Assembly: GCA_027604185.1 (NCBI GenBank)
Contig: JADGKB010000167.1
Location: forward strand, 1-22,179
Direction: 5' to 3'
Length of the DNA stretch: 22,179 nucleotides
Source: Boothiomyces macroporosus
Lineage: Eukaryota > Chytridiomycota > Chytridiomycetes > Rhizophydiales > Terramycetaceae
Part shown: positions 2,602 to 22,179 of the stretch, piece after piece
How positions within the stretch are numbered: the first letter of the stretch is position 1
How the letters are laid out: each line of letters opens with the position of its first letter
The notes under the pieces: model-generated
Seen by the model: only the letters and a program-made list of their open reading frames with translations
The model's database searches: none
What the model was told of the DNA's origin: nothing
Position numbers and translations under genes: made by a program

Positions 2602-3767
2602 ATGGAAAGCAAGGAAGAACAATTACCAACGTACGAGGCAGTAGTTGAACATATTGTAGATGTAAACGAACTGGAAAAGAAGGCACCACCAGTTCCATCC
2701 AAAGATAATCAAGAATCATCTGTTCATTCACCAAAAGGAAAAGGTTCATCCATCAATTTCTTTGGGTTATTCACCACTGGTTCACTGACAGACTATCACG
2801 ACGTGCTGTACTCTTCCGGATTGGTGGAAACATTCAAATTAAGAGTTCAACCTGTAAGTTTATACTAATCAAGTATGCTAACATTGAAGTCTTCTTTGAA
2901 GAAATCAAGGCTATTCAAGTCGAATACAATATCCCTTCAAAACCAGAAATCAAACACTCTTGCGAAATGAAAGGAACCAAGTTTGTAGTCGAAATATCAG
3001 CAGCAAGAGGAATAGTGACCAATTGGTTCTCTCCACAAGCTGGGCAAGTTACTATCAGACTTCCAACATTCTTCAAGCTGAATATTGATTTTGAAGTTTG
3101 CGGTACCGTAGATTGGAAAGGTAGTCCGACACTTTTGCAAGACGTTGATATCAAAACACTGGCTGGCAAAATCAGAATTGACAGTATGTACGCCAACACT
3201 ATTGATATTTCATCATCTGGTGGTTCAATTACTTTAGATAATGCCACATGCTCAAAATTAAAGGTAGAGTCTTCTGGAGGGAGAATCGAATCTTCCAATG
3301 TTACCGCTGACAACATCAAAGTCAAATCATCTGCTGGAACGATTGATTGTATAGAGTACAAAGCGACAAATGATGTTGAAATTAAATGCTCAGCTGGGTC
3401 AATCAAGGCACAAGTTGACTTTGTTAAAAACGCAAAGGGAGAAATTGATATCCATTCATCAGCTGGGGCAATACAAGCAATAATTACTGGTTACAAAGAT
3501 TTAAAAATCAAATCAAGTGCTGGCAGTGTAAAAGCCGAATTGATACCAAATGAATCCTCAAAAACAAAGTTATCCTCCTCTGCTGGCAGTGTTTCTGCAA
3601 ATGTCAAAAACTTTAGAGGAAGCCATGATTGCAAAGCATCAGCCGGATCCGCTACTGTTAGAAGAAATGGTATGCCTCTTGCCCCAGACAACCAAATCCC
3701 GCCTGGTTCAAGTAAACTTGATGCACATTCAAGTGCTGGAAGTGTAAAAGTAAACTTTGAATATTAA
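2602..3767 (+). CDS. DUF4097-like repeat protein, 381 aa, one 20-nt intron
   Basis: Exons 2602-2853 and 2874-3767 join in frame across an intron of 20 nt (gtaagtttatactaatcaag) with a clear ACTAAT branch motif. Without it the first frame stops at once and the second lacks a proper start. The N-terminal 50 or so residues are charged and proline-containing (PPVPSK), with no signal peptide. The C-terminal half carries about nine copies of a roughly 20-residue repeat centred on SSAGS or SSGGS (for example IKSSAGSVKAEL), the pattern of DUF4097/toastrack beta-solenoid domains best known from bacteria. The family's biochemical role is poorly known; a structural or scaffold role is a guess. The gene converges on the F-box gene at 3794 with 26 nt between stop codons. 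Confidence 0.8.
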
Positions 3768-3793
3768 AAAAAGTCCAGATTGTACATTTTGAT

Positions 3794-5377
3794 TTATATT
3801 ATTACATTAATACTTGAATTAGCCAGCATAGACTTGATTTCCTTTCTTAATTGAGTCTTTTCATTGCCTTCCAGTCCAATTTTCAAGACTCTCAGCATGG
3901 AGAGTGCGATTTCACCAACAAACTTTAGTATAGCTTCTTTGGAAAATAGATCCGCTTCAAAAATCAATTTTCGTATGTTAGAATGGATAATTATTGGAGC
4001 AAGTTTGTCCAAGAAACTACTCTGGAATTCACATAATCCAAACGTTAAAGTGTCCAAACCGCCAAGCATTACTTTGGATAAATCTTGATGTTTAATTGTT
4101 GTGTCGCGAATACGCAAGTGTTTGATTTGTGAATTCTTGATGTTTGACAGTAGGAGAGAAATATTTTCGCCAAGGTTAGAGTTTTTTAAAATCAATTCAT
4201 TAGCAGGTAACGAGTGGAGTAACAATGGCAGTGTTTTCCCGTGAATAGGTTGATATCCCAAAAAGGATAGCTTTAGTACTTTTGATTTAGACACTGCCAT
4301 CAGTACAGCCTCTAGATATTCAAGATATAGATCCAATTCCAGTTCGGTGATATCTGTTTGTGGTAAGCTTTGTTGAAACGCCAAAACGGACTTTTCCCCA
4401 TATATTCTTGCAGACAGTTTCTTGAGCTTGCATTTGGGAATGATATTGTACAGTATACACCAATCATCACTGTCAAATCTGTTTGTATCAATTTCAACAC
4501 ATTGAATCTTTGAACAAGACAAGGCTTTGGAGATATTTATCAATCCCAACTTGCCGATTTGATTTCCCTTTAGATTCAGGGATTTCAATTGACTGCTATT
4601 CAGCACACCAGCCAAAGCTGTTGCTCCAATATCACTAATTTGATTGAATGACAAATCGAGATATGAAACACCACTGCAAGGTAAATTTCTGGCGAAATAG
4701 ATAACGCACTGGTCATTGATAAAACAGTTTTTAAAAGTCGCTCGCTCCAGTTTTGTCATGTGAATAGTTGAAAATATTTCTTGCATAACAGCACATTGGT
4801 AATCCAGATTCTTGTAAATCTCCAACTCTTTAATGTCATACTTTACCAGTACTTGACAGAGTATCTTGTAGCTGCCAAAACTACAGCCAGAGAATTGTAG
4901 TTTGTTTACATTTTGAAATTTGGATACCTTGTTGAATACTTGTCCGGCAAATATGTGGTTAAAAGTGATTGTCGTAATTCGGCCATAGTTGAGCATATCG
5001 ATAAATTCTGAACAATTTGTATCGAAATCTACTTCCACTTGAACATTCTTTGCAGCGGGAATATTACCCTTAAGGCTGGAATAAATTGCTGGCGCTAAAC
5101 GGACAATTTGAAACTTGAATCCCAACAGTGCTTGTTTAAGGCTAATGAATGATAAAGAGTTCATTTTTGAAGAGCTTTTTAATGTCCCAAGTGACAGCTC
5201 AATGCTTGGCCAAATATTGTACTTTTTGCTGTCAACCATCATACTGGACAAGCTTCTAAATGGCGCAAGAAGGTTATAGAGCCTCTTGCATGTTAGGGAT
5301 AGAAATAATATATCCGCCCCATCAAGTAATTCTACTATTGCGAGCAATGGATCGACTGGAAGTATATGCAGCTTCAT
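3794..5377 (-). CDS. F-box/LRR protein 2
   Basis: A 527-aa protein read from ATG 5377 down to TAA 3796-3794. The F-box opens with LPVDPLLAIVELLDGADI at about residues 6-42. It is followed by YNIWPSIEL, the same W-P-x-L/I-x-L motif found in the three sister genes. Canonical RNI-like LRRs occupy about residues 235-300 (YLDLSFNQISDIGATALAG, LKSLNLKGNQIGKLGL), with weaker repeats on both sides. A second family block, about LYLEYLEAVLMAVSKSKV, also recurs in the paralogues. The likely role is substrate recognition in an SCF ubiquitin ligase (inferred). No intron is required. It is divergent from the F-BAR gene at 5617 and convergent with the DUF4097-like gene. Confidence 0.88.
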   Translation of the reverse strand: MKLHILPVDPLLAIVELLDGADILFLSLTCKRLYNLLAPFRSLSSMMVDSKKYNIWPSIELSLGTLKSSSKMNSLSFISLKQALLGFKFQIVRLAPAIYSSLKGNIPAAKNVQVEVDFDTNCSEFIDMLNYGRITTITFNHIFAGQVFNKVSKFQNVNKLQFSGCSFGSYKILCQVLVKYDIKELEIYKNLDYQCAVMQEIFSTIHMTKLERATFKNCFINDQCVIYFARNLPCSGVSYLDLSFNQISDIGATALAGVLNSSQLKSLNLKGNQIGKLGLINISKALSCSKIQCVEIDTNRFDSDDWCILYNIIPKCKLKKLSARIYGEKSVLAFQQSLPQTDITELELDLYLEYLEAVLMAVSKSKVLKLSFLGYQPIHGKTLPLLLHSLPANELILKNSNLGENISLLLSNIKNSQIKHLRIRDTTIKHQDLSKVMLGGLDTLTFGLCEFQSSFLDKLAPIIIHSNIRKLIFEADLFSKEAILKFVGEIALSMLRVLKIGLEGNEKTQLRKEIKSMLANSSINVII

Positions 5378-5616
5378 GAAATTGTAAAAGTTCTAGAGGC
5401 TCATGCTTGGGACTTTTACTGACGCCAAGGACTGAAATTACAAGCTCTTACATGTACCTTGTTTTAGATATGAACATATGTTTATTGAAAGGATTCCTTC
5501 ATAGGACGGCCGGAAATCGTTCACTACAAGCGTCTTTGCGTATCACAAAGGAGAATCACTGTGCAGATCACAGATCACGAACCCAAGTACCGTGCGGTAT
5601 TTTTTAACTAATCTCC

Positions 5617-6942
5617 ATGGAAATGGTTTCTGAAAAAACATTTGCAAACTCGTTTTGGGGCCAGGATGAAAAGGGATGGTAACTATTCATAATCAAGGGA
5701 TGCGCTCCTTCAGAGAATGAAAAGATCTAAACATGTATCGGAAGAAATAACAATGTTATTGAAGGAACGCTCGGCGATCGAAGAAGAATACGGAAAAAGA
5801 CTCGCTAAACTTGCCAAGAACTTTTCACCAAAGGACGAAATAGGGTAATCAAAATTAATCCAGAACGTTGAGAGAATCTCTTGATGTTATTCGTATTGAA
5901 CTGGAAAAAACAGCGCGTGCTCACTTGGATCTTGCCTCCGACCTTAAAACCAAACTAGAAAGACCTATGGTTGAATTTGTAGCGAGGTACATTGTTTTTT
6001 ACAAGTCAAACGAGTATTAGAAAAAATCACCAACGAATTAACGAACGAAATATTCAGTTGAAAAGCAGTCAGGAAGCACTTGTCCATAAGAACAAGGAAA
6101 AATACGAACAGAGGTCCGCAGAGTATTTGCAGATGCAGCAAGCCGTGAAAGCTCAACCACAAAACGAAAAGGTAGATTCTTCTAATAGTAGTTGAGGGTG
6201 AAATTGGATAAATTGAAACAGAATGTTGTGTTATGTGACCAGGATTATGAACAGTCTTGTTTAAAGTTGGAAGAAATTCATAGCAACTGGCAGCAGGATT
6301 TCTTGGCTGCTTGTGTAGATTTTCAAAAATTAGAGCAAGACCGATTTCATTTTATTAGAGGAACAGTATGGAATTATACAAACTTTTTATCCAGTGTATG
6401 TGTTTCAAATGATGAAGTAATTATTTCCTAACTAGTCTTGCGAGAATGTTCGTGTATCTCTTGAAAAATGTAATTTAGAGTATGATATTCAATTGTTTAT
6501 CGACGAATGTGCCACTGGTACTGAAATCCCAAGGCCAGCATCATACCCAAAACATAATAGAATGCCAAGTGAAATGTCTTCTCAAATAAGCTCTGGTGCT
6601 AGTGTGAACAACTCTACTCCACAATTCCAGTTCACCAAAGTACCAAAATTAGAAGAAATCATTAGACAAGAACAAGATGACTCTCGTATGGATTCTACAT
6701 TCCAGTATGATCCATATGATACTGACCATATCAAAATTCTATTTAATGTAAAATGTTTATACTCGTATGAATCGCAAGCAAAAGAAGAATTGACAATTGA
6801 AAAGGATGATATTATTCCTGTATTGGCAAAGAATGAAGACGGGTGGTGGGAAGGTGAGTGAAATTTAATAATAGGACTTGGATATGAAAATGGAATCAGA
6901 AGACGCGGTCTATTTCCTTCCAATTTCACAGAGCCTTGTTGA
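5617..6942 (+). CDS. F-BAR and SH3 protein (Cdc15/Hof1/PSTPIP type), 7 exons
   Basis: Exons 5617-5678, 5698-5844, 5864-5986, 6006-6171, 6192-6416, 6436-6853 and 6875-6942 give 402 aa; the six introns are 19, 19, 19, 20, 19 and 21 nt. The N-terminus FANSFWGQDEKGWDALLQRM is the classic start of a fungal Cdc15-like F-BAR domain, followed by LLKERSAIEEEYGKRLAKLA and charged coiled coil to about residue 250. A Ser-rich linker leads to a C-terminal SH3 (about 343-400: CLYSYESQAKEELTI, DGWWEG, GLFPSNF). The final SH3 strands only appear after the last intron is spliced. Proteins of this family bend membrane and recruit partners at the cytokinetic ring or actin patches. The length is close to that of human PSTPIP1. 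A start at 5623 (second Met) is possible. AATAAA at 6946 follows the stop. Confidence 0.93.
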
Positions 6943-7134
6943 GCCAATAAATTCTTTAATTTATAACTACATTTTTAAAGCTTACAGCTGCTATGCTGGT
7001 TTTATATGAGAGTTGCCATTCAATTTCAGTCATAAAGAGCCAGCCATCTTTTTCTTTCTGGAAACTGCTTTACCAAATAGGATCATCCACCTCTAGTGTG
7101 GGGAATGAATCAGCGCGGGATAATGCACCAGCCC
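6943..7134. other. Spacer between F-BAR gene and inverted repeat
   Basis: It holds the probable polyadenylation signal AATAAA at 6946-6951 for the F-BAR gene. No supported gene is seen before the repeat arm begins at about 7135. Confidence 0.4.
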
Positions 7135-7280
7135 ACGCAACTTGTGAGAATGGCAAGCTTCCAAGCTTCTGTTTGAGCGACCAGTGAGATGGGTCAGAGC
7201 GGTTCAAGCACTATTTCTGCCATCGTGTGGACAAGTCGACATGTGCGACAACGCAACCCAATCAAGCGCCTCCACAAATC

Positions 7281-7335
7281 GATTCACCGTAGATTCACTG
7301 TTAATCCGCCATTGATTCGCCATTCATTCGCTATG
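7281..7335 (+). repeat. 11-bp tandem repeat, five units
   Basis: Five degenerate 11-bp units run without a gap: gattcaccgta, gattcactgtt, aatccgccatt, gattcgccatt, cattcgctatg. The right arm carries seven units at the equivalent place. The period is close to one DNA helical turn, so a repeated protein-binding site upstream of the micropeptide gene is possible. Confidence 0.75.
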
Positions 7336-7601
7336 ACTGAAGAGAAACGATGACAAAGAGCTGCGGACAGTGCGGCTCACGCTCACCACATGGTGCAGGA
7401 AAATGCCAATCTCTTGGCCAGCTCAGCTGCAAATCTGCCGAAACTTTCAGGCAGTGCTCACAAGCAGCCAATCTGCGACTCCCGCTGCTTTCAAAGCACA
7501 TGGCCGCCCAACAGAACGCACTAGAAACCCCTTTTAGTCCTCTTTTCGTCAAACGGAAAATTTTTTCTTTCCATCGAGTTGGTGGCGAAGCAAGGGAAAG
7601 G

Positions 7602-7608
7602 TATAAAA
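7602..7608 (+). promoter_or_regulatory. TATA box of the left-arm micropeptide gene
   Basis: TATAAAA inside ggtataaaaggcc lies 38 nt before the ATG at 7640 and is conserved exactly in the right arm. It is the strongest core promoter element in this part of the window. Confidence 0.7.
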
Positions 7609-7639
7609 GGCCAGCTACACTGAGAGCCATTAGCTTATC

Positions 7640-7759
7640 ATGATCATGCCAACTGCCACTGTTATCGCTGCCCAAGTCAAAGACGGAAAGAAGCAAGCCA
7701 AGCAAGTCGAAAACCTCTCGTTCATGAACAACATCACTTTCCAAGGCCGCCATTTGTAA
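7640..7759 (+). CDS. 39-aa micropeptide, copy A
   Basis: ATG 7640 to TAA 7757-7759. The protein begins MIMPTATVIAAQVKDGKKQ and ends in QVENLSFMNNITFQGRHL. A second in-frame ATG at 7646 could also be used. Copy B in the right arm differs by one amino acid (Ala11 to Val) and one silent change. A divergent relative at 17966 shares the pattern DGKKxxKxVENLxFMxx(I/V)TxxGR, which is strong evidence for coding. There is no signal peptide or cysteine; the middle is Lys-rich, so a small basic intracellular protein seems likely. I know of no family with this motif. Longer overlapping frames in the arm run through the TATA box and are not conserved in frame. Confidence 0.8.
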   Translation: MIMPTATVIAAQVKDGKKQAKQVENLSFMNNITFQGRHL

Positions 7760-7850
7760 GGGCCAAGTGCAACTATTATTAACTTGAACTATTTATTAAC
7801 TTATAAACTATTTATTTCGCATCTATTTCTATTTTGATTAGTGTTCAAAC

Positions 7851-8379: not shown

Positions 8380-9831
8380 TTACACATGGACATTAATTAT
8401 TCGATTGCACTCCAGCACTTCACGTATCTTTCTTCTTGCCCTAGCCAACTCTGATGATTCTCTAATATTAAACCCGAGATTCAGCCTATAAAGTGTTGAA
8501 TGTTTGATTGAATTTACAAAAGAAAGAATACCGACTAAAGTAAGACTATTGCCAGAGAGATCTAGTTGTTTCAATAATTTCATATTGATTGCAAAATCTT
8601 GCAATGCATCATCAGTCATTCCTGAATAATTGATAGATAGCGAATCTAGCGACAAGTTTTTAATGTTTTTCCCAATATTTACATCTACACTATCTAATCC
8701 CCATATATCCAAGTGTTTCAACTTTGAATTGAACGGAATCTGTTCCAAAAGTCTACATATGTGAGCTTCCTCTATTTTACAGTAATTCAACTTCAAATGT
8801 TCAACTGGTAACTTGTTGATATAGTTTTGGAGAATAGTTGCAGATTCGTTCTTGAATGGCACTTCGATACCAGTAAATTCCAAATATTTTACTTTTGACA
8901 GTACTATACACTGTAAAAATTCCTCCAAGTATTCTTTAGATATCTCTAAATTAATACTTTTGATTTTTGAAGATTTCAGATTCCTTGTAATTGCTGAAAT
9001 AGATTTTTCACTAGTAATCTGTCCTTCTAATATTTCCAAGTTGGTTTCTGGCAGTACTTTATACAATATACAAAGGTCTTGATTCTCGAAATCATTGAAA
9101 GATATATCCAAAGACTTGATCAAACTGTTAGGTAGAGCAGCGACAATCATTTTTAATCCTTCCTTCCGAATGTAATTCATGGATAGATTCAACTCTTTAA
9201 TATTTGTATGTGGTAGATGTTTCGATAGTTCCGCAACACCCACATCTGTGATAATGTTTTTTGAACAATCCAAAATTGACAATGCGGTTCTAGAGAGATT
9301 AAAAGACAAGATCTGCAAAGCTGTATCTGAAAGATGGCATTCACTAAGATCAAGTTCTTTGAGATGCAGAGTGTGAATTTGGTGTATGACCATGTGAATG
9401 ACTGTAGGAGAGCTTAATTTAATTGTTAAGGCAGTCAAATTGCGCAATCTAAAGATTCTTTCCATTTCCAATTCATTAACCTCCTGTTTAATAATCATAC
9501 ACACATCTTTACTGGGAGGCAAAATCGTGAATTTGTGTAAAAAGATATCGGACTGTATGGTGATTAAATTGTATTCAAACGCAGAGTTTGAGAGGCAGGA
9601 AATCCGCTCTAAATCAACTTGCAGATTATCGTTGAGGAAATTGTCAATCAAGTGCAACGATGGCCATATCCCATAGTGATAATCCTCTTTCAAACAAGAC
9701 CCAAAGAAACGGAAATCCGACAGCAGCCCATAGAAATACTTGTTTGTGAGTGATAAATAGAGTAAATCCTTTCCATTTAATAATTGGAATATCGTGTAGA
9801 GAATGTCGAAAGGGAGATTTTCCAAATTCAT
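8380..9831 (-). CDS. F-box/LRR protein 3
   Basis: A 483-aa protein from ATG 9831. The open frame reaches a TTG at 9858, but the first ATG gives the family-typical start MNLENLPFDILYTIFQLL. The F-box spans about residues 4-40, followed by YGIWPSLHL. LRRs follow, with clean repeats at about 165-260 (LSILDCSKNIITDVGVAEL, IKELNLSMNYIRKEGL, IKSLDISFNDFENQDL) and a further set near the C-terminus (LKQLDLSGNSLTLVGILSF). The family block ISKEYLEEFLQCIVLSKV is present. The likely role is as an SCF substrate receptor. The ATG lies only 36 nt after the stop of the upstream gene on the same strand and in the same frame, so it may share a transcript with that gene. Confidence 0.85.
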   Translation of the reverse strand: MNLENLPFDILYTIFQLLNGKDLLYLSLTNKYFYGLLSDFRFFGSCLKEDYHYGIWPSLHLIDNFLNDNLQVDLERISCLSNSAFEYNLITIQSDIFLHKFTILPPSKDVCMIIKQEVNELEMERIFRLRNLTALTIKLSSPTVIHMVIHQIHTLHLKELDLSECHLSDTALQILSFNLSRTALSILDCSKNIITDVGVAELSKHLPHTNIKELNLSMNYIRKEGLKMIVAALPNSLIKSLDISFNDFENQDLCILYKVLPETNLEILEGQITSEKSISAITRNLKSSKIKSINLEISKEYLEEFLQCIVLSKVKYLEFTGIEVPFKNESATILQNYINKLPVEHLKLNYCKIEEAHICRLLEQIPFNSKLKHLDIWGLDSVDVNIGKNIKNLSLDSLSINYSGMTDDALQDFAINMKLLKQLDLSGNSLTLVGILSFVNSIKHSTLYRLNLGFNIRESSELARARRKIREVLECNRIINVHV

Positions 9832-9867: not shown

Positions 9868-11314
9868 TCAGAAATAGATTGGATTAGCACCGCCATACAT
9901 CGGAATGTCGATACAATTCACTTCTAACTGATCACCCTTATATATATTAGTAGGGTAAGAAAAGTTGAAATTCATAATGTATTGTGTTTCGCTGACAATG
10001 ATCAAATCCACTGCTCTTGCTGGATATATCCTCTGTTCGTTAGATACATCATCGGTATAGTATACGACTGCGCGATGTCTTTTTGCATCATAGTCCATTT
10101 CAAAAGTGATATCAGTGCCGTAGAATGAAACTTCCAGATGAAAATTTGAGATTGGCTTCCCAAAAAATACAATGTTAGGGTTGTAGCGATAGAACAGATC
10201 GGAAGGGCCGCTCAGAACAGTAGTGTACGCCGCACTTGCTAAATCATAAATTCGGAAATGATTGTCATCATAAACTTCCAATTTTACAAAATCATCTAAA
10301 TCATGAAACCATCCTGGCTGCAATAAGATTGGTTCTTCATATCCTGGAAAATCTTTAGTCAATTGCAAGTATTTGTTGTTTCTTTTGCCTTCAGAAATGA
10401 TTGTTCCGATATGCTTTGGACAAGAAGGGCTTCCATATACTTTCAACTCGCAATCATGTGCTGCTCCAAGCTGATAATTCCCAGATTCTAAATTGGATAA
10501 ATTCAACTTGAAGGTTTGTGTCAATAAAGATATGGGGTCATTAAAATACCACCGCAGGTCAATTTTCCACTCTAGAAAGTATTGGGCAACCTTCTTTGCT
10601 TCCCGCTTGTTGTATACTTCGTGCTTTGTAAAAGTAACCTCGTCTGTCCTCAGCCTTTTGGAGGAATGTTCTTTTTCGATATATGAATGACAAGAATGGT
10701 CTTGCCTGATGTGGTCATCCAACTTTTGCTCAGAGGAATTGTTCTCTGGATTGTAAGCGGCTTCTAGCTGTGTAAAAGCCTTGCCATGATTTAACTTGAA
10801 TTTATATTCCTTTGATGTTGAGCTTGAACTAGAAAAATTCTTGAAAATGTCTATTGCAGAATTTGATAAATTGCTTCCAGGAAAGAGATGATTTTCTAGC
10901 ATTGGCAGGGAAGCATTTGCACCAGCCACCAATGGGTCTTTCTTGGTTGGTGCAAAATCCTCTACCAATTCGCTATCGCATTCTTCAACATATGAATTTG
11001 ATTCACCAGAACATTCACTTTCAAAAGACTCTACGGTTGGGTGTATATGTTACCTTCAAATCCAACCATATCTTGAGAATCGCTGGGGATTTTTACCAAC
11101 TCGAAACTTGAGACTGGTTTTCGCTTCATCAAATTGTCAATAAAAAATCGTAGAATAAGAAGGGTCACAAATGCACCACCTTCCACATTAAGAAAAGTTT
11201 TTCCTCGCTTATCTACAAACACATTATCATGGAGAGTAGTTACAGATTGCCGACTGTTCGCTACGGTATAATAATTACTAGAAATCCTATTGTGGGAAAT
11301 ATAGTTCACTTCAT
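9868..11314 (-). CDS. Unrecognised protein, about 466 aa, 2-3 exons
   Basis: Exons on the minus strand are 11314-11310, 11286-11054 and 11030-9868. The intron at 11053-11031 (23 nt) is well supported: it joins GFE to ESFESECSGES in frame, and no ATG start exists for the downstream frame. The first intron (11309-11287, 23 nt), which gives the start MKISSNYYTVANS, is my best guess; the frame upstream has no ATG of its own. The N-terminal block DKRGKTFLNVEGGAFV looks globular. An acidic Ser-rich linker follows, with a basic SSKRLR stretch that could be a nuclear signal. The C-terminal 230 residues or so are rich in beta-type sequence and aromatics. I recognise no family and propose no function. 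Confidence 0.65.
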
Positions 11315-11322
11315 CTTTTGGA

Positions 11323-11329
11323 TATAAAA
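11323..11329 (+). promoter_or_regulatory. TATA box upstream of the secreted peptide gene
   Basis: TATAAAA lies 85 nt before the ATG at 11408, farther than at the other genes here. It also falls about 10 bp outside the proposed start of the minus-strand gene at 11314, so the two start regions are packed together or the minus-strand start is misplaced. Confidence 0.45.
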
Positions 11330-11407
11330 GGTAAGTGTGTGGTCGTGCACTGACACGCCCCGTTCCACCCGTGGACTTTAACGATTTGATTGAAAGGACT
11401 TTGCAAA

Positions 11408-11530
11408 ATGCAAATCAAAACTCTTGTCTGCCTCTTGGTTGCTGCAGTCTACGCATCCCCTGTAAAGAACACCCAAGATTTTGTCCCTATCATGCAGGAT
11501 GATGACAAAGCCGGTAAAAGGGATGGATAA
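11408..11530 (+). CDS. Small predicted secreted peptide, 38-40 aa
   Basis: ATG 11408 in the context caaaATGC. Read straight through, it gives 40 aa ending KAGKRDG at TAA 11528-11530. The N-terminus MQIKTLVCLLVAAVYA is a textbook signal peptide, with cleavage likely after YA or YAS; a short hydrophilic mature part of about 24 residues follows, without cysteines. The unspliced form has a KR dibasic pair near the end. However, a good 21-nt intron fits at 11514-11534 (starts gtaaaa, ends ataactag). Its removal changes the tail to DKAVAK with a stop at 11543-11545 and deletes the KR. AATAAA at 11541 overlaps that second stop. A secreted peptide is likely; signal, effector or pheromone roles cannot be told apart. 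Confidence 0.6.
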   Translation: MQIKTLVCLLVAAVYASPVKNTQDFVPIMQDDDKAGKRDG

Positions 11531-11654: not shown

Positions 11655-14600
11655 ATGCACTCCCAATTAGTTATTTTTTTTATGATTGACGCAAAAGCAA
11701 TTGAAACAGGTTTCGTTAGTCTCATATCCAATTCATGGTTGACATCTATAATGAAAAACGGGGATAACCTAGCCGCAAAAGTAACTACTGTTAATCAAGG
11801 ATGCACCAATTCTGCCCAAAAACAGTGCCGACACAGAATTGCTAGTAGAGCCATACCTCGCTCAAGTGGGGCAGTTTCTAAGGAGGCAGAGGAAGGATTT
11901 TCCCAATATTTATTTTCACCTGCTAAAGATATTTAAATGGGAAATGTATTATAGATTAATGATAGTGTTGCAATCTCATTGCTCCAGCTGCTTTCCATGC
12001 TTATGACTGCATTCAAACCATTATTAATTGGCCAAGTATATACTGCTAATTTAGTTTCTAGCCTACTTGGATCCCCAACAGTCAGCCCATCTATGGTCAA
12101 ATGATATCACCTTACCACTAGCTGCGATATTTACTATATCAATAGTTACCCCAATTCTCGACTCTATTGCCAACTCACTTTCTGCCAAATCACAGGTGAA
12201 CTTTTGGGTGTTGATGAATACTCTCCTTTACAAAAAAACCCTGAAACTGAGTGCCGAAAGTAGGGTGGTAATAATTTATAATTTTAGAAGTATCAAACTG
12301 GTAATTTGTTGAATATATACGGCAGTGATTCAGCTAAAATTTACCAGGGGTTGACAGCTTTCAACTCTTGTATATTTCCAATCATTCAAGTAGTTACAAA
12401 CATCCTTTTTCTACAAAGTTTGATAGGATTGACAACGGTATATACTTGCATTGCTTATATCTTGGCTTTTATACCTGTGGTGATGATGCAGATTAGAATT
12501 CAACAACTAGCTACCAAATCTGATATGCTGGTTGATACTAAAATCAATCATTTGCGCGATATATTCAAGAGTATCTAGATATTTACCCAGGTATTAAGAA
12601 TATCAAGTTGTCAAACGTCGAGAATTACTTTTTTGACATTGTAAAAGCCAACATTGATCAGGATATGGATGTGGCCCGAATTATATACCTGTTAAATCGG
12701 GTAAGTTTCACCGTTACAACTGGCCTGTCTACACTATTAAGCTGTTTAACCTTTGTGATTTACAGTATTCTAGGATCCACATTAAATCCAGCAGTTATTT
12801 TCCCGGCGTACATGTATTTGGATCAGATTTCATCTCAATTAGTCACTTTGAAAGAAATATTTGAAGTAGCGATGGTGGTGTACGAAGGATACAATATTGT
12901 TACGAAATTCATGTCTGCGAGTGAAAAGAGGGACACAAATGACAATACCGGGTCGCGTTTAGCTATAGAATTAGTGGGTACAACTTGGAAATGGTTTGAT
13001 CCAGTGTATATTAAAGAAGCGCATGACTTGGAAATGAAGAAAATCCGGTATATTGGAAAGTATAGAAAGCAAACCTTGGAAAGAAAAGCAAACGAAAATA
13101 CTTTCCAATTAAAGGATGTTAATCTTGATATCGAAAAAGGGAAGACAATTGGAGTGGTTGGTACAGTTGGTGCTGGCAAAAGCACACTTTTATCAGGTAT
13201 AGCAAGGGAACTTGATTACAATTCTGGAAAAGTAAACTATACTAACGCAGATGCATATTGATGGAACTATTGCGTATTTCACTCAGCAACCTTGGTTGAT
13301 GATGGATACTATTGAATCCAACATTACCTTTGGTCAAGAACTTGATCAGCAAAAGCTTGATCATATCATCGAAATATGTGGTCTAAAAATGGATATTGAT
13401 GGTCTTGATAACGGCATCCATACGTTAGTAGGAGAGAGCGGTGTCAACTTGTCAGGCGGACAGAAAGCAAGAGTTTCGTTAGCAAGATGCATCTATTCTG
13501 ATTCCGATATTTATCTGCTAGATGATCCCCTTGCATCTATCGATGCTCGTGTCGGGAGACAAGTTTTTGAAGCAGCAATCAAGAACGAATTGAAAGGGAA
13601 AACTGTGCTATTCTCGACGCACCAACTTCAATACATGAACCAGATGGACGAAATTATAGTCATAGATAAAGGAAGATTGGTAGAACGCGGCACATTTGAA
13701 GAGTTGAATCAAATCGACAGTGGGTATTTTAAAAAAATGATTGAAAACTTTCACTTTGATGAGGAGCTAGAAAACGATACTAAAGAAACTGTAATAGAAA
13801 CCCAATCAAAGCAAGTGTCAAAGAAAACAGAGGATATTATCAGAAAAGAACAAAGCAAAACGGTATTCTTTTTTTAAAAAGTAGGGGAAATTGAGGAATA
13901 CTCTGTATAAGAAGATCTTTAGAGGTATCAAAAACCCGTTGTGGTACGTTGGGATGGGTATTGGATTTATTTTCAATTTTGTTTTAGAATTTTTAGGGCT
14001 GCTTATCCTCACAGCTTGGTCAAACGACTCGTCAAGAGATTCATTCTTTATTGTTGCCCTTTCAGTGTCTACCGTGGCTCAGCTGGTTGTATTTTGTAAG
14101 AAATGTTTTACATAGATATCGTCACTTTGCTGTGGTATTTGGGGGGTATTACTAACAACAAGTACTATTTTTCAAGAATGTTCACGTCCGTATTGCACGC
14201 ACGCTATTACTTTTTTGAGGAAAACCCAATTGGAAGGATTCTTAGTAGATTTACATCCGATCTGCAGGTCCTCGATCGTGCAATGTTCAGATCTCTCTTG
14301 GCTGTGGTATCTTCAGCTAGTTCTTTAATAGGAAAGAGTATTCTAGTGTGCTGTGCTACACCGTATTTGTCCAGTATTTTCTGATTAACCCAGTCATATT
14401 GCTTTTAGGCTATAGCATACTTTGGTACATTAGGGGAACCTACGATTCTTCTGTATTGGCATTCAAAAGGATATATGCTGTGGAGAAAGCAAACTCGGAT
14501 GCTATAAAAACAGAAACTATTACAGGAATTGCCACCATCAACGGATTTGCAGGTGCATCCGAGTTTTTCAAACAAAGATTTATGGCTCAATCTGATATAT

Positions 14601-15731
14601 GGTTAGGGTGGCGTGCACTTACGATATACAATTTATGTTGGTATCAATTTAGAGTATCTATTGTGAACCTACTGATAAGCAATGGCATTATCATCTTTGC
14701 AATGATTTCGGGTACAAAATCAACGATCTTCAGTTCACTAGTTGCACTAGCTCTTACACAAGCAGAAACATGTTCCTCCAAACTAGTTTTATTGATTGTA
14801 AATTTATCACAGAATAAGTCTAATGTACTTGTGAATTAATTTAGATGAACTCTTTTGAAAGAGTAGTAGAGTATTGTGAAGGAATTGAGCAAGAGCAGCT
14901 GGATGAAGATGCTTCTGGATATCTACATTGGCCCAGTAAAGGGGAAATAGAAATCCGAAATTTAACCCTTGCATACCATAGTAAGCCTGATACCGACATT
15001 ATTAAAGACCTTCATATTTCCATTCAGGCAGGAGAGAAAATAGGTGTGGTGGGAAGAACTGGTTCGGGAAAGTCAACTCTTGCCATGTCCTTCTTTCGGT
15101 TATTTGAACCAAAGCGTGGCACCATCATTATTGACGATCATGGTAGCTATTATTTAATCTAGATATTCGAACTGTTTGTTTGCAAGCACTGAGGAGAAAT
15201 ATATCAATTATATCACAGGAAGCCAATGTTTTTACTGGGACCATACGATATAACCTTACTCTGGGTGATTTTGCAGACGAAATAATTTGGCAGGCATTAG
15301 ACGTTGTAGGACTCAAATCGTACGTTTCCGAATTGCCTCAAAAATTAGATCATGAACTAACTACAAACGGCGGTAATTTATCTTTCGGACAATGCCAGTT
15401 ATTATGTTTGGCTCGGGTTATTTTAAGAAAGCCAAAAGTTCTGATTTTGGATGAAGCCAACTCTTCAATTGATCTAGAAGCAGATCAGAAGATTCAAGAA
15501 GTGCTGCGTACACATTTAAAGGATACAACTGTCATTAGCATTGCTCATAGGTTGAACAGCATTGCTGATTTCGACAGAGTGCTAGTATTGGAAGATGGTG
15601 CGATGAGGGAATACGATTCACCGTATAACCTGCTTCTTAATGACTCTTCTCAGTTTGCTGAAATGGTTAAATCTTCTGGTAGTTCTAATGCCAGGGCTAT
15701 TATGGAAATTGCACGACTTCAACAGAAATAG
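11655..15731 (+). CDS. ABCC (MRP-type) ABC transporter, about 1284 aa, 12 exons
   Basis: Introns at 11781-11799, 11965-11987, 12036-12054, 12268-12287, 12571-12590, 13232-13250, 13863-13884, 14096-14115, 14374-14393, 14825-14844 and 15143-15162 (19-23 nt) join all pieces in one frame. The fourth intron could instead start at 12265. The order is TMD1 - NBD1 - TMD2 - NBD2 without an N-terminal TMD0, like short MRP transporters. NBD1 has Walker A GTVGAGKST (about residue 470), signature LSGGQ (about 560), Walker B IYLLDD and H-loop STHQ. As usual for ABCC, Asp replaces the catalytic Glu. NBD2 has GRTGSGKST (about 1071), LSFGQ, LILDE and AHR. It should export organic anions or conjugates across the plasma or vacuolar membrane; the substrate cannot be told. 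The start could be Met 11682 instead of 11655. Confidence 0.93.
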
Positions 15732-15805
15732 AGTTGATAGTCTTAATACATGGATCTAATTTATTGGCGCATTTTCTATTCTCTGGTTTATTTTACATGG
15801 ACTAT

Positions 15806-15831
15806 TCATTCAGCAGTCTCATTCAGCAGTC
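15806..15831 (+). repeat. 13-bp perfect tandem duplication
   Basis: The unit tcattcagcagtc occurs twice back to back. It sits about 75 bp past the ABC transporter stop. It is probably a slippage duplication; a regulatory role is possible but not shown. Confidence 0.7.
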
Positions 15832-16170: not shown

Positions 16171-16180
16171 GATTTAAATA
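16171..16180 (+). promoter_or_regulatory. TATA-like box of the F-box/ankyrin gene
   Basis: gatttaaata (TTTAAATA core) ends 22 nt before the ATG at 16203, close to the spacing seen before the other TATA-driven genes. Confidence 0.4.
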
Positions 16181-16202
16181 CCCCGTCAAAAATTAAACCG
16201 CA

Positions 16203-16952: not shown

Positions 16953-17927
16953 ATAAACAAATTTCAGCAAGAATTTGATTTTGACGAATATTTGGATTGA
17001 AACAACACAAATACTTCCACCGTTTAAAGAGCACTGCAAATTTTAAATGAGGTGTCTCACCAAGATGTTATTCTAAAACTTGTAGGGAAAAATGTTTATT
17101 TTAAACTAGTGATTCTGTCACTCAGCTGCTTGCCAACCATCAACCATTTCCTTGGTTAATCTGCCAACACCAAATCTTTTCTCAATCACTCATAGTGGAT
17201 TACTCCAACGTCGCTAGTTGCAGCGAGAAGGAGGGTAATGCTGCTTTCCAGTCTCTTCATCAGGAGTCTACCCTTCAAAGTTCCATTTTTTCTTTTGTCT
17301 GCCAAATTTCAAGCACATTGAACCAATATAGCAGATAATTTTTTGAATGGGAGATGTAAAGTCATCTGCTGTTTTTCGCCATTGGTATTTCCGATTACAG
17401 CTCCCTGAGCTTGACCTAATATTTGTTGATACTCTTGCTCCTTTTTTGTACAGGTTTCAATATATAAATGACAGAGTTTTCCACACGGTTATATTCTTTG
17501 TCATAGCAGAGTGGGCAATGCAGTCTTCAACTTGTTCATTTTTTTGATTTTCATTAATAGAGAGATCTATAGTCGTGTGATCACTGGATACTTTAGCAAT
17601 TTGGGATATCATTTTGGGAGGTTCCCTTAGAGTGCCAGGGTTAATTTCGGTAAGTTAAACCCATGAAAAAAGAATGATCACAATTCGATTTTCATTTGAA
17701 AGATGATTAATTCTTGGTCAGTGGTTTGGTCACTGGATACTAATGGAATATTTCGCCATTAACTCGTGAAATTAATATAAATGAAAATGGAATTACCTAA
17801 CTAAACCGTAGGTGATTCTACCATTAAATCTGCTATAACCATTGAAATTTAGTTGAAATTCCAAACGTTTTTGAACCACATGATCCTAGTAATCATCAGT
17901 CATTTTGATGGTGGCACCAAAAAGCAG
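16953..17927. other. Long intergenic region, no supported gene
   Basis: About 1 kb without a convincing gene. A 66-codon ATG frame at 17347-17547 has no homology, no TATA box at the usual place and a Phe-rich composition typical of chance frames. A 12-bp direct repeat (tcactggatact) occurs at 17581-17592 and 17730-17741. The right end is the promoter of the gene at 17966. Confidence 0.45.
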
Positions 17928-17935
17928 TATATAAA
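17928..17935 (+). promoter_or_regulatory. TATA box of the 46-aa micropeptide gene
   Basis: TATATAAA lies 38 nt before the ATG at 17966, exactly the spacing of the TATA box in the left inverted-repeat arm. Confidence 0.65.
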
Positions 17936-17965
17936 GCGGTAGCCACGGTCATTAATTACTACAAA

Positions 17966-18106
17966 ATGTCTACTCCAGGTGAAAAAATGAATCCTATTGC
18001 TGAAAAGATTGTCATGGTTGAAAAGCATGACGGAAAAAAAGAAGTTAAAGAAGTAGAAAACTTGCAATTCATGGGTCCAGTTACCATGCATGGAAGAAAC
18101 ATGTAA
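17966..18106 (+). CDS. 46-aa micropeptide, divergent relative of the repeat-arm gene
   Basis: ATG 17966 (context acaaaATGT) to TAA 18104-18106. The protein starts MSTPGEKMNPIAEKIVMVEK and ends EVENLQFMGPVTMHGRNM. Aligned with the 39-aa copies it keeps DGKK, a Lys two or three residues on, VENL, FM, V/I-T and GR near the C-terminus, while the N-terminus is different and longer. Conservation of spacing and of the C-terminal end, plus the identical TATA-to-ATG distance, argues for a real gene. No signal peptide, membrane segment or cysteine. The function is unknown. It lies between the two repeat arms but is not itself part of the inverted duplication. Confidence 0.8.
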   Translation: MSTPGEKMNPIAEKIVMVEKHDGKKEVKEVENLQFMGPVTMHGRNM

Positions 18107-18496
18107 AATAATATATTGTTGCATATGCGGTTCAAATCTTGTCTCTATTAAACACGTGTATTGATGTGTTAAATAATGATGCCATTTTGGAACCAAAACC
18201 TAAACCTATAGAAACACTTGAAATTGCGAGTTTTCCAGTAGCACATCAGACACACTTGATCGAACTATTGCTGTAACTTTTCGAGTAACCGAAAAGGGTG
18301 TAAAAATTTGTATAATTGCTTGTTGAGTAATGACACAGTGAGTATATCGTCTTGTTCACTGTAATCTACGATTCTATACCAGATTTCTAATGGTAGTCCA
18401 GCAGACATGTAGATTGAAAATTCATAAATTTTAGGAAAGACTTTTATTCAATTAATTTGGTTCTTTAGAGCATTGGGTTAAGGAGAGTAATTAAGT
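18107..18496. other. Intergenic region between convergent genes
   Basis: AT-rich, with no gene seen. It holds the 3' ends of the 46-aa gene and of F-box/LRR gene 4. A short inverted repeat (acagtga at 18335-18341, tcactgt at 18356-18362) could form a weak hairpin. Confidence 0.4.
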
Positions 18497-20053
18497 TCAA
18501 TTCAATTTGATACACAGATCAAATTTGTCCATCAAAATGAATTGAAACGAGATTTCCTTCACTTTCGAATTCCTAGCTGCATTAACAAATTGATCCATCC
18601 CCTCTCTTGTAAATTGGTTATAATCCAGTACCAAATATTTGATCCTAGACTGTGAAATAGTTTTAGAGAGATAATCAAGGAAACCATCGTTAAGACGTGT
18701 ATTTACTAATGACAAACAAGTCAACTTGGATCCTACAATTCCATCTGTAATATCTGATGATAAACTGGATAAATTGGTGGAATAAATCTCCAGTTTCTCC
18801 AAATTACATTCAGATAAAGACCGAAAAATTGTCCTTAATAGAGCTTGATCACTGTTGTAACTACTAATCTTCAAGTGTTTCAAATTGGAATTGATCAATG
18901 ACGAATGGACATCTCCGGTAAACGAACCGCCGTTTAGCTCCAAATTACAAAGTGGTGCTTCCTTGGTGATACTTGAAAAGATCAAGCCAATATCGGAAAA
19001 AGCACAATTGAGAACAGTGATACTCTTGATTGGAAGATTATTCAGGTGGCTTCCTAGTATTATAGCACAAGCGTCTTCAAACTTCAAGTCTTCCCTTACA
19101 GTTAGAGATTCCACTGTAGAGCTGTACAACCCTAATAAAAATTGATCCAGGAATTCTTTTTCTATATCAATGATGAGCGTTTTCACCCTTGATTGCTTAA
19201 TATTCCGGGAGAACGAACTAGCAGTACTTTTATCTATTATTTTCAAGTAGCAGTTTGTAATATTGCTTCCAGGCAAATTATCTCCCAACAAATAGTAATG
19301 TGATGCGTCAAAGAGATTGTGTTGAATTTGTAATTCTTGTAATTTACATTTAGGAAGAGCTTCACAGAGATGTTTGAATCCTTCCATTTTGATCTGATTG
19401 AAATATAGATTGATTTTAATCAGTCTGGATTGTGGTAGAATCGTTGAAATTGCTATTGCACCCTTGTCGCTTATTTTGTTATTGGCCAATTCCAATATTC
19501 TTAGAGTATCAAATGGCATAGTATGGATCAAATTGATAATATCTTGATCATCAAGTCCGCAATTGTAAAGCGAAAGCTCGCTTAATCGAACCCCAGAAAG
19601 GTTATTGATTACTGCTTTAGAAATACTATGATCAACACTGCTTCCTACGCTGACTCTGTTCAAATTCCAATGATCAAAGACTCTATCAAGTTCATCCTCT
19701 CTTGTCCCTTCTTCCACATTCATACAAATCTCTTTTGCATTGGGCAATCGATGCGATAAATTGTTGAATATTCTCGGGCTTACAGTAATACATTCAAATT
19801 GAAGATCTATCGTAATTATTAATTGCACATCCGTTTCGGTAATATTCCGCAATTCATCCTTTACTGTAAATTTGCAGAGTAATAACCTTGGCCATATATT
19901 TATGTAATGTTCGGGATTCATGTATGATGACAGAATTCGCAGAGGAGCTAGGCGATTGTAAAAATAATGATTCGCGATTGATAGTTTCAAGATATCCAGT
20001 CCATCAAGGTGTCGAAAAATGTAATTTTGAAGTTCTGCAGGGATTGTTTCCAT
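18497..20053 (-). CDS. F-box/LRR protein 4
   Basis: A 518-aa protein from ATG 20053, start METIPAELQNYIFRHLDGLD. The F-box covers about residues 4-40, followed by INIWPRLLL, the same motif as in the three sister genes. RNI-like LRRs are clear at about 185-265 (LRILELANNKISDKGAIAI, LIKINLYFNQIKMEGF, LQELQIQHNLFD) and again near the end (IKYLVLDYNQFTREGM). The block IEKEFLDQFLLGLYSSTV recurs in the family. A TATATA stretch at about 20108-20113 lies some 55 nt upstream of the ATG. The inferred role is a substrate receptor of an SCF ubiquitin ligase. No intron is required for the frame. Confidence 0.88.
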   Translation of the reverse strand: METIPAELQNYIFRHLDGLDILKLSIANHYFYNRLAPLRILSSYMNPEHYINIWPRLLLCKFTVKDELRNITETDVQLIITIDLQFECITVSPRIFNNLSHRLPNAKEICMNVEEGTREDELDRVFDHWNLNRVSVGSSVDHSISKAVINNLSGVRLSELSLYNCGLDDQDIINLIHTMPFDTLRILELANNKISDKGAIAISTILPQSRLIKINLYFNQIKMEGFKHLCEALPKCKLQELQIQHNLFDASHYYLLGDNLPGSNITNCYLKIIDKSTASSFSRNIKQSRVKTLIIDIEKEFLDQFLLGLYSSTVESLTVREDLKFEDACAIILGSHLNNLPIKSITVLNCAFSDIGLIFSSITKEAPLCNLELNGGSFTGDVHSSLINSNLKHLKISSYNSDQALLRTIFRSLSECNLEKLEIYSTNLSSLSSDITDGIVGSKLTCLSLVNTRLNDGFLDYLSKTISQSRIKYLVLDYNQFTREGMDQFVNAARNSKVKEISFQFILMDKFDLCIKLN

Positions 20054-20196
20054 AAAGTAAAAAATTCATGTCCAACATTGAAAATCAATCACAATAGCAA
20101 TAGACTCTATATACATCTGGGTTAAGTATGCAGATTATTCCAATCAATTTGCGTATAGCCAACAAATCGTTTGAACACTAATCAAAATAGAAATAA

Positions 20197-20240
20197 TGCG
20201 AAATAGATGCGAAATAGATGCGAAATAGATGCGAAATAAA
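20197..20240 (+). repeat. 11-bp tandem repeat, four units
   Basis: tgcgaaataga is repeated three times exactly, with a fourth unit differing in one base. The left arm has a single copy (around 7813-7826). It lies in the 3' flank of micropeptide copy B. Replication slippage after the arm duplication explains it best. Confidence 0.85.
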
Positions 20241-20294
20241 TAGTTTATAAGTTAATAAATAGTTCAAGTTGATAAATAGTTGCACTTGACGGCC

Positions 20295-20414
20295 TTACAA
20301 ATGGCGGCCTTGGAACGTGATGTTGTTCATGAACGAGAGGTTTTCGACTTGCTTGGCTTGCTTCTTTCCGTCTTTGACTTGGACAGCGATAACAGTGGCA
20401 GTTGGCATGATCAT
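20295..20414 (-). CDS. 39-aa micropeptide, copy B
   Basis: ATG 20414-20412 to TAA 20297-20295 on the minus strand. The protein is identical to copy A except Val instead of Ala at residue 11; one further difference is silent (Thr codon ACG for ACT). The TATA box at 20448-20454 is in the same position as in copy A. A longer frame that includes this region (20245-20685) is not preserved in the left arm and runs across the TATA box, so I treat it as chance. The function is unknown; see the motif shared with the 17966 gene. Confidence 0.8.
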   Translation of the reverse strand: MIMPTATVIAVQVKDGKKQAKQVENLSFMNNITFQGRHL

Positions 20415-20447
20415 GATAAGCTAATGGCTCTCTCAGTGTAGCTGGCC

Positions 20448-20454
20448 TTTTATA
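20448..20454 (-). promoter_or_regulatory. TATA box of micropeptide copy B
   Basis: On the minus strand this reads TATAAAA in the run ggtataaaaggcc, about 40 nt before the ATG, the same arrangement as in the left arm. Confidence 0.7.
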
Positions 20455-20719
20455 CCTTTCCCTTGCTTCGCCACCAACTCGATGGAAAGAAAAAATTTTC
20501 CGTTTGATGCAAAGAGGACTAAAAGGGGTTTCTAGTGCGTTCTGTTGGGCGGCCATGTGCTTTGAAAGCAGCGGGAGTCGCAGATTGGCTGCTTGTGAGC
20601 ACTGCCTGAAAGTTTCGGCAGATTTGCAGCTGAGCTGGCCAAGAGATTGGCATTTTCCTGCACCATGTGGTGAGCTGAGCCGCACAGTCCGCAGCTCTTT
20701 GTCATCGTTTCTCTTCAGT

Positions 20720-20796
20720 CATAGCGAATGAATGGCGAATCAACGGCGAGTCGACGGCGAGTCAATGGCAGATTAACAGTGAATCTACGGTGAATC
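20720..20796 (-). repeat. 11-bp tandem repeat, seven units
   Basis: Seven 11-bp units without gaps; on the minus strand the series starts gattcaccgta, gattcactgtt and ends gattcgccatt, cattcgctatg. Compared with the left arm, two units of type gactcgccgtt have been added in the middle. The array sits about 300 bp upstream of the copy B start. Confidence 0.75.
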
Positions 20797-20930
20797 GATT
20801 TGATTGGGTTCATTGTGGCAGTTGTCGACTTGTCCGCACGATGGCAGAAATAGTGCTTGAACCGCTCTGGCCCATCTCACTGGTCGCTCAAACAGAAGCT
20901 AGAATCTTGCCATTCTCACACAAGTTGCGT

Positions 20931-21258
20931 ATGGTCTCAATGTTTTAAAAAAGCGGACAACTTGGCGACTCAAAGCTTTTACGCTCAGCATCTGCCTCAT
21001 ATGGCTTTCTAAAATAGCTGAAAAGTACGTATTCGTAGTTAATGTTTATATACTAATGTACGAATACTTAAGAATCAATTCTTCACAGGAAGCTCACTTC
21101 CGCATAAAAATATTATTAGGACCATTGGTGATGCTATTCCGATATCTTTCATTTGCTTGTAAATCATAACCTATGTATACCAGACCCTCTTAAGTTATTT
21201 CCTGAATATTTCAACAGAAGACTAATTAAAAAGTTACAATTACAGCAATTAAATATAT
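20931..21258. other. Intergenic region right of the inverted repeat
   Basis: No gene is seen. A perfect 9-bp inverted repeat (gtattcgta at 21029-21037, tacgaatac at 21059-21067) is separated by a 21-nt AT-rich spacer, and a second small hairpin (ggaag-ctca-cttcc) lies near 21090. Both could be part of the 3' end region of the Uma2-like gene or of no function. Confidence 0.4.
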
Positions 21259-22179
21259 TTAGTGTTGTTGGTTTCTTAAAAACTTTGCCTTTTGTGCTTG
21301 ACTACGGTGCCATTCTGCATGCTTGGCCATTTCTGAATCCTTCTTAAACTCCAAATTACACCTTCTACAATATTCTGGCTCCTCCAATTCATCTTCAGAC
21401 GACGAACCAGGTTGCTAAATATCAACAAAGACTTACCTGATTTAATACAAGGTCCAAATCTAGCGACTCTACAACAAAACCAGGAAGAATGTCATCGCCT
21501 GAAAGATTTCTCCAACTATCATCAGCAGAAACATCCACATCACCAGTAACTGCATTCTTCTTATATACAATCATAATCTTGTTTTTCGGGTCAATTAGCC
21601 AGCCTAATAAAACACCCTAACATCAGTTTTCACTTACATGTGGGAAATAATCGACAATCATTTTACGGTGAAGCTCACTACGTTGAGAACCAGAGCCAGT
21701 AAGAGTGTCTATTTCCACAACAAAGGTAGGAGAAAATGATATACCTTGGTAAGTCCATTTCTGTTGTTCATTTAAGTTTCTGTGAGTTGAAATAGGAGTG
21801 TACCCAACATCGGGCATTCTAACATCTCGCCTTGTACCTAATATAAAGGCACCTTGAGACGGAGTCATCCTTCCACCAATTTCAGAATTCCATGTAATCC
21901 ATTTATCAAGTAATCCAGCAATTTTACCAACAACTATTTCTCTCCCATAGACCACCATTCTTGCTGGCACCAGTCTGTTAATTTCGCTGTCGATATAAAA
22001 GTGTCTTAACAATCCAAAATGGCTGTTATCAATAGGATGGTTGCGTAAATAATCGTTCAACTCTTCAAGTGTAACGTTACTGTAGTTTTCCAAGGATAAT
22101 AACTTTTCAGTTGTTTGTAAATCTTTTATAAGTCGTTGAAAGTCGCCACTTGGTTGTCTCGGTTGTAAGTTGCTTTCTT
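21259..22179 (-). CDS. Uma2-like PD-(D/E)XK nuclease-fold protein with C-terminal C2H2 zinc finger, 5' partial
   Basis: Exons on the minus strand are 22177-21638 (open to the window edge; no ATG found), 21616-21437 and 21414-21259, separated by introns of 21 nt (21637-21617) and 22 nt (21436-21415), both starting gtaagt. The 291 codons seen include a Uma2-type core: MTPSQGAFILGTRRDVRMPD, FVVEID, LHRKM, then GVLLGWLIDPKNKIMIVY and LPGFVVE. The Asp of MPD, the Glu of VEID and the Lys of RKM match the expected PD-(D/E)XK active-site pattern. A Glu/Ser-rich hinge leads to CRRCNLEF and a final KHAEWH, a C-x2-C-x12-H-x3-H finger near the C-terminus. Uma2 proteins are common in bacteria and occur in some fungi; their function is unsettled. 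The introns show the gene is resident in a nuclear genome. DNA binding or cleavage is inferred. Confidence 0.82.

Follow-up and report, generated by a model that had tools for sequence, protein, structure and literature searches.

Whether a fungal spliceosome can handle introns of about 20 nt as a matter of routine is the question raised by a 22,179-nt stretch of DNA (the window), a whole contig of the 15.2-Mb genome of the chytrid Boothiomyces macroporosus (216 contigs; Chytridiomycota, Rhizophydiales, Terramycetaceae). Coordinates given without a contig name are positions in this window. The first-pass annotation had proposed about 20 spliceosomal introns of 19–23 nt in five genes and had taken such lengths to be the normal class. 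Twenty introns were confirmed here in four genes, with lengths of 19 nt (seven introns), 20 nt (eight), 21 nt (two), 22 nt (two) and 23 nt (one). The 23-nt segment of the fifth gene (GTAACATATACACCCAACCGTAG, 11031–11053, minus strand), which would link the frames 11031–11414 and 9868–11049, is doubtful, as it has no clear branch motif and its call stays uncertain. The segments are best explained, with a probability of roughly 0.94, as ordinary U2-type spliceosomal introns reduced to the shortest length that the splicing machine physically allows.

Introns in the genes of the window

The gene for an F-BAR/SH3 protein (5617–6942, plus strand) contains six introns. Four are 19 nt long (5679–5697, GTAACTATTCATAATCAAG; 5845–5863, GTAATCAAAATTAATCCAG; 5987–6005, GTACATTGTTTTTTACAAG; 6417–6435, GTAATTATTTCCTAACTAG), the fourth in order is 20 nt (6172–6191, GTAGATTCTTCTAATAGTAG) and the last is 21 nt (6854–6874, GTGAGTGAAATTTAATAATAG). 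The first five were identified by a frame test together with homology to Terramyces, and for the third also to Globomyces; the sixth has a length divisible by three, introduces a stop if retained, and its removal restores the end of the SH3 domain. The spliced protein of 402 aa contains the Pfam domains FCH and SH3. The F-BAR protein of Terramyces sp. JEL0728 (P0237) is also 402 aa long; the two align end to end with 94% identity, and the alignment is gapless at each of the six junctions. The fit points to the same splicing, the protein alone giving no intron lengths in Terramyces. For the intron at 5987 a 34-nt version was rejected, since the homologous residues SQTSIRKNHQR in Terramyces and TQHSIRKNHQK in Globomyces (P0248, approximately 50% identical) back a length of 19 nt.

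The public B. macroporosus F-BAR protein (HK103_002060, 302 aa) is mis-spliced, with 75 exon residues dropped (LRVK to NDE). Its lack of SQTSI is what a third intron of 34 nt would produce, and the protein terminates inside the last intron. The F-BAR protein of Boothiomyces sp. JEL0838 also appears faulty in that region. The public L7 protein of B. macroporosus, in contrast, is identical over 249 aa to the spliced L7 from another contig, here called C1. Judged from these proteins rather than from gene coordinates, the public annotation would capture some ultrashort introns and miss others.

The ABC transporter gene (11682–15731, plus strand) contains eleven introns and encodes 1275 aa, in which Pfam recognised two ABC_membrane and two ABC_tran stretches. 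The frame test recovered all eleven introns, among them three of 19 nt at 11781–11799 (GTAACTACTGTTAATCAAG), 12036–12054 (GTATATACTGCTAATTTAG) and 13232–13250 (GTAAACTATACTAACGCAG), six of 20 nt at 11946–11965 (GTATTATAGATTAATGATAG), 12571–12590 (GTATCTAGATATTTACCCAG), 14096–14115 (GTAAGAAATGTTTTACATAG), 14374–14393 (GTATTTTCTGATTAACCCAG), 14825–14844 (GTACTTGTGAATTAATTTAG) and 15143–15162 (GTAGCTATTATTTAATCTAG), and one of 22 nt at 13863–13884 (GTATTCTTTTTTTAAAAAGTAG). The remaining one, of 23 nt at 12265–12287 (GTGGTAATAATTTATAATTTTAG), has a GTG donor, and a GTA 3 nt downstream gives an alternative of equal length at 12268–12290. Both the F-BAR and the ABC frame are stop-free once all of these introns are spliced, and putting back any single one of the 17 creates a premature stop.

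Three further introns lie in two other genes. A gene with a DUF4097 domain (2602–3767, plus strand; Pfam PF13349, E 9.4e-16) has one intron of 20 nt (2854–2873, GTAAGTTTATACTAATCAAG) that links a 97-aa frame to a 352-aa frame, giving 382 codons, stop included, after splicing. At the end of the contig a truncated gene (21259–22179, minus strand), whose residues resemble what we take to be a Uma2-type nuclease domain, has introns of 21 nt (21617–21637, minus strand, GTAAGTGAAAACTGATGTTAG) and 22 nt (21415–21436, minus strand, GTAAGTCTTTGTTGATATTTAG), and its spliced frame is open to its stop. The four introns that had been quoted individually, at 2854, 6417, 12036 and 13232, were thus all found in place, with lengths of 20, 19, 19 and 19 nt.

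All 20 introns have GT-AG ends. Eighteen begin with GTA and two with GTG (6854 and 12265), which agrees with the starts and ends first described. The branch motif had been given as CTAAC, CTAAT or TTAAT in most introns; the strict form YTAAY is present in only 12 of the 20, and the looser YTNAY in 19, the exception being the intron at 13863–13884. A permissive gene-finder run on the window called extra introns inside open frames (for example 12301–12357, 14135–14162 and 14190–14236). These were discarded: the frame is open there without splicing and, in the ABC gene, it also keeps what we take to be transporter motifs.

Introns in genes of other contigs

Together with the window, introns curated in genes of the splicing machinery and in the ribosomal protein gene RPL7 gave a set of 38 (window 20, Prp8 five, U2AF65 four, Slu7 two, Prp18 two, SF1 two, RPL7 two and a gene on contig C119 one). 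These genes are not a random sample; 37 of the 38 introns are 19–24 nt long, and the sole longer one is a 122-nt intron in RPL7. Prp8 contains five introns of 20, 19, 21, 21 and 22 nt, and the joined protein is 2312 aa. Retaining any one of these introns ends the protein between residues 77 and 1699, and two joined pieces that together span all five junctions align with human Prp8 without a gap. Entry 9r8v was considered as a closer relative of Prp8 than the human protein and was rejected, as its chain reproduces a portion of the human protein and the associated paper concerns the human spliceosome.

The introns of Slu7 are 20 and 23 nt, those of U2AF65 19, 20, 19 and 19 nt, and those of SF1 24 and 21 nt. 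The C119 gene, presumably Cwc24/RNF113-like, has one intron of 19 nt. Prp18 has a probable GC-AG intron of 21 nt after MDFLK, placed by its fit to what we take to be the start of human Prp18, and a second, stop-free intron of 21 nt, the seven residues of which are lacking from Globomyces Prp18. Frame tests alone therefore overlook some introns, since stop-free 21-nt introns occur in both Prp18 and SF1. The next-best matches of Prp18 and L7 were from other chytrids. The Prp18 model of Terramyces sp. JEL0728 (P0002) is fused to an upstream domain (PF01894) and misses a conserved stretch, a fault possibly due to software that missed ultrashort introns.

Intron lengths in the genome sample

The sample examined for generality comprised 200–287 kb, or approximately 2% of the genome. 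Independently of gene models, 20 sequences totalling 286,696 bases were searched for YTAAY motifs with an AG whose end lies 5 or 6 nt past the branch A, and the spacing between GTA and that A was counted. Spacings that place the branch A at positions 14, 15, 16 and 17 occurred 124, 70, 23 and 6 times, while positions 8–13 gave 2, 3, 8, 7, 4 and 2 with no rise, and the background at positions 20–60 was 6.9 ± 2.2 with a maximum of 11. Controls with other donors or with YATAY gave no spike. The motif GTA-N7-9-YTAAY-N2-3-AG matched 151 times in C1:1-200000, compared to 4–14 times in ten first-order Markov resamples, and it matched 10 times within the window itself; the window segments are far from chance. 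The first AG lies 5–6 nt past the branch A in 204 of 329 GTA/YTAAY pairs with a spacing of 14–16. The lengths implied without a gene model were 19 nt (58), 20 nt (70), 21 nt (29), 22 nt (18) and 23 nt (8), against a background of 8.5 per length. If C1:1-200000 is typical, the excess at 19–23 nt extrapolates to approximately 10,700 introns genome-wide.

C1:1-200000 and the window (222 kb) were also run through a gene finder that had fixed motifs, raised penalties and a flat length prior of 10–300 nt. At its strictest setting 71 of 96 introns were 19–22 nt long, and at two looser settings 98 of 157 and 150 of 288. A first run, with self-retrained motifs and introns of up to 500 nt, was dropped, as false long introns fused neighbouring genes. 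A scan of 200 kb of C1 for frames that could be joined gave 32 GT[AG]..YTAAY..AG candidates of 19–25 nt, a few of which share a donor. Its controls gave 5 with GA for AG, 4 with AC, and 2 and 2 with wrong donors; a branch motif in altered order, overlapping the real motif, gave 12.

Lengths below about 25 nt are the rule in the sampled DNA, with a peak at 19–22 nt. The claim that introns of 19–23 nt are the normal class in a fungus is backed by homology across junctions, by other contigs and essential genes, by the flat-prior gene finder, by the model-free spacing test and by canonical U1, U2 and U6 pairing regions. It stands within the sample, and the class is not universal, RPL7 carrying an intron of 122 nt.

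Intron anatomy

The layout of the introns was examined in 74 short introns (15–30 nt) from the strict gene-finder run. A stands at the third base in 96% and at the next in 61%, with no preference for G at position +5. YTNAY is present in 70 of the 74, a count that is partly built in, as the caller used a branch matrix. Among these 70 the branch A lies at position 14 (37 introns), 15 (24), 16 (6), 17 (2) or 9 (1), so that 69 have it at 14–17, and it is mostly followed by 5 (34) or 6 (29) nucleotides. The arrangement is near fixed: GTA, a branch A at 14–16 in a YTAAY-like motif, and an AG ending 5–6 nt later, for a total of 19–22 nt in most introns. When the A is at 14, positions 9–15 are taken up by the branch heptamer and positions 1–6 by the 5' site, which leaves two nucleotides free between them.

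Splicing machinery

The genome contains U1, two copies of U2, U6, Prp8, SF1, U2AF65, Slu7 and Prp18. U1 starts with the canonical AUACUUACCUG and aligned over the full 166-position model, so it is not shrunken. U6 aligned over the full Rfam model and has ACAGAGA. Both U2 copies contain the branch-pairing region GUAGUA. The two U2 genes, C80:60682-60874 (L009) and C178:9607-9797 (L010), have this region in common and differ in their 3' halves, with a G+C of 0.44 and 0.36. All five protein factors that were searched with a dedicated family model were matched, U2AF65 under its cut-off. Yeast work had suggested that a short distance between branch and 3' site might go with loss of Slu7 and Prp18; this expectation failed, both being present.

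A longer intron in RPL7

RPL7 on C1 has introns of 22 and 122 nt, and the spliced L7 aligns without a gap with a fungal L7 of known structure. In the 122-nt intron there are GTGATGA and CTGA boxes, and Rfam matches to snR39 (25.5 of 40 bits, E 0.031) and to SNORD2 (23.3 of 37 bits, E 0.051). In yeast snR39 sits in an intron of an L7 gene. At gathering scores, no snoRNA emerged when C1:1-200000 was scanned with Rfam in pieces of 10 kb. This one case suggests that the spliceosome is probably still able to remove longer introns, and that long introns may survive when they carry a needed RNA.

Mechanism and alternative explanations

From sequence, the segments would be removed from RNA by the spliceosome. 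Recognition should use the usual pairings, as the pairing regions of U1, U2 and U6 are intact, with almost no linker between the 5' site and the branch heptamer. There is no room for a polypyrimidine tract between the branch and the AG, and the simplest choice of 3' site is the first AG. Longer introns are an exception, the one homology-backed case being that of RPL7 with its C/D snoRNA-like sequence. The sharp edge of the spacing test, from 2 counts at position 13 to 124 at position 14, may mark a physical floor.

A fuller account is put forward tentatively, with the odds somewhat against it: a spliceosome complete in the parts tested would have pushed approximately 10,000 introns down to a single steric floor, with the branch A at 14 and the AG 5 nt further, in a fungal family that is free-living in soil, with escape only for introns that hold a functional RNA. 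On this account the 5' site and the branch could not be bound by U1 and SF1/U2 at one time across a loop, and U6 would have to take over the 5' site from U1 no later than during formation of the branch helix. Here we infer both the order of the binding events and the steric cause of the floor.

Several results weigh against the proposal of ordinary spliceosomal introns at a physical floor. In the spacing test a smaller spike (31, 27, 10) remained when AG was replaced by GA, and the gene finder with a reversed branch matrix still called 80 introns, 34 of them at 19–22 nt. A cruder first scan based on long open flanks gave few candidates, 11 GT..AG at 19–22 nt against 7, 1, 0, 1, 1 and 0 in controls, and was superseded by the motif-based scan. 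In the machinery, U1 scored 68.8 bits, slightly below the gathering score of 69.5, and U2AF65 230.7 bits against a cut-off of 310.3, its gene being split and its model also matching two control genomes. U5 snRNA gave no match in the Rfam search, which cannot establish absence, and U2AF35 was not located among the three that were read of 17 CCCH matches. The snR39 and SNORD2 matches in the RPL7 intron lie below their gathering scores. Lastly, a near-identical Logan protein (P0001) retains the 21-nt Prp18 segment; it begins at an internal GTG past the probable first intron, as a caller on unspliced DNA would, and appears to be read from unspliced DNA.

The alternative that survives best, itself very improbable, is that the ultrashort introns are one class among several and that an equally large class of 40–200 nt escaped the tests. 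The 122-nt intron of RPL7 fits such a class, as do the 25 of 96 gene-finder introns outside 19–22 nt, most of which had no individual check, and long introns spread over many lengths would be poorly visible at any one of them. The model-free count for 24–44 nt was nevertheless 165, with no excess over the 186 expected from 45–60 nt, the reversed branch motif raised the calls of at least 26 nt from 23 to 43, as noise would, and only one of the 38 curated introns, in genes not sampled at random, exceeds 24 nt.

Removal by a non-spliceosomal route, such as ribosome bypass, splicing by tRNA ligase or DNA elimination like that of ciliate IESs, is still less probable. In its favour the lengths are far under those of usual fungal introns as described in excerpts of two papers (PMC8476143, PMC11913375). 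Arguments to the contrary are the GT-AG ends, a branch motif that can pair with the U2 of this genome, the canonical U1 end, the ACAGAGA of U6 and the number of approximately 10,000 expected by extrapolation. It is hardly credible that the segments arose as assembly or sequencing indels, or that the genes are decayed copies: all 17 tested window segments add a stop or shift the frame, as errors would, but errors would not yield 124 counts at one GTA-branch spacing and 2 one base shorter, the ends are GT-AG in 20 of 20 with a branch-like motif in 19, the segments occur in the essential genes Prp8, SF1 and RPL7, and a different isolate (Terramyces sp. JEL0728) has the same spliced protein.

Other features of the window

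Four F-box/LRR-like genes lie within the 22 kb (882–2348, plus strand; 3794–5392, 8380–9831 and 18497–20053, minus strand). F-box matches were found in three and LRR_6 matches in all four, some below curated cut-offs, and the family is apparently expanded. An inverted duplication joins 7164–7761 and 20293–20900, with arms approximately 12.5–13.5 kb apart. Two arms, of 246 nt and 140 nt, show 99% identity, and two shorter ones show 92% (95 nt) and 88% (93 nt). The 140-nt arm spans a tiny open frame (7640–7759, 40 codons with stop), and a very small open frame at 17966–18106 (plus strand) encodes a 46-aa peptide that by eye is like it. Another very small open frame (11407–11530, plus strand) encodes a secretory-looking peptide with the end GKRDG.

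Comparison with known systems

Some microsporidian introns are near 23 nt long. The literature comparisons that follow draw on excerpts of the cited papers, in which microsporidian introns are short but few (PMC10245619). The nucleomorph of Bigelowiella natans has 865 introns of 18–21 nt in 373 kb, with shrunken U1 and U5. It resembles Boothiomyces in the length range, the large number and the retained ACAGAGA of U6, but it is a relict endosymbiont nucleus in which a 5' site motif was not identifiable, whereas Boothiomyces is a fungus with full-length U1 and U6 (PMC6461891). The introns of Stentor coeruleus are 15–16 nt, with the branch A at position 10 in those of 15 nt; they share one fixed branch position and narrow lengths with Boothiomyces, but are approximately four nt shorter and without a strong branch consensus, compared to a strong YTAAY with the A at 14–16 (PMC9505925). 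In the ciliates Paramecium and Nyctotherus ultrashort introns of approximately 25 nt, slightly longer than those of Boothiomyces, are the only class (PMC5014332).

Mikrocytos mackini, a parasite, has 224 annotated introns of 16–17 nt and a spliceosome of 17–19 proteins. Its uniform ultrashort introns with conserved motifs are like those described here, while Boothiomyces differs in an extrapolated number of approximately 10,000 and in having Prp8, Slu7, Prp18, SF1 and U2AF65 (PMC10245619). Neither the shrunken U1 of the nucleomorph nor the reduced spliceosome of the mikrocytid was found among the parts tested. Human introns that depend on SPF45/RBM17 likewise leave U2AF65 too little space to sit on a polypyrimidine tract, but the model intron of 56 nt is longer than those of Boothiomyces (PMC8363638).

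Among fungi, a survey of introns gives means of 63 to 469 nt in the named species (PMC8476143). Cryptococcus introns average 56 nt, with "ultra-short" meaning under 60 nt; they are short fungal introns with an existing 20–40 nt bin, yet are not centred on 20 nt (PMC11913375). For Batrachochytrium, another member of the Rhizophydiales, 37,153 introns have been annotated (PMC5364385). A search of open-licence papers returned, among the matches listed, none that described introns of about 20 nt from a chytrid, or any fungus in which such introns are the rule.

Ultrashort introns have so far come from relict nuclei, ciliates and intracellular parasites, with an odd spliceosome or genome. Where a fungus combines canonical pairing regions in U1, U2 and U6 with the usual protein factors, the shortest distance over which a normal spliceosome can work becomes testable. 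Gene predictions in the Terramycetaceae may err wherever software assumes longer introns, the public F-BAR protein being an example.

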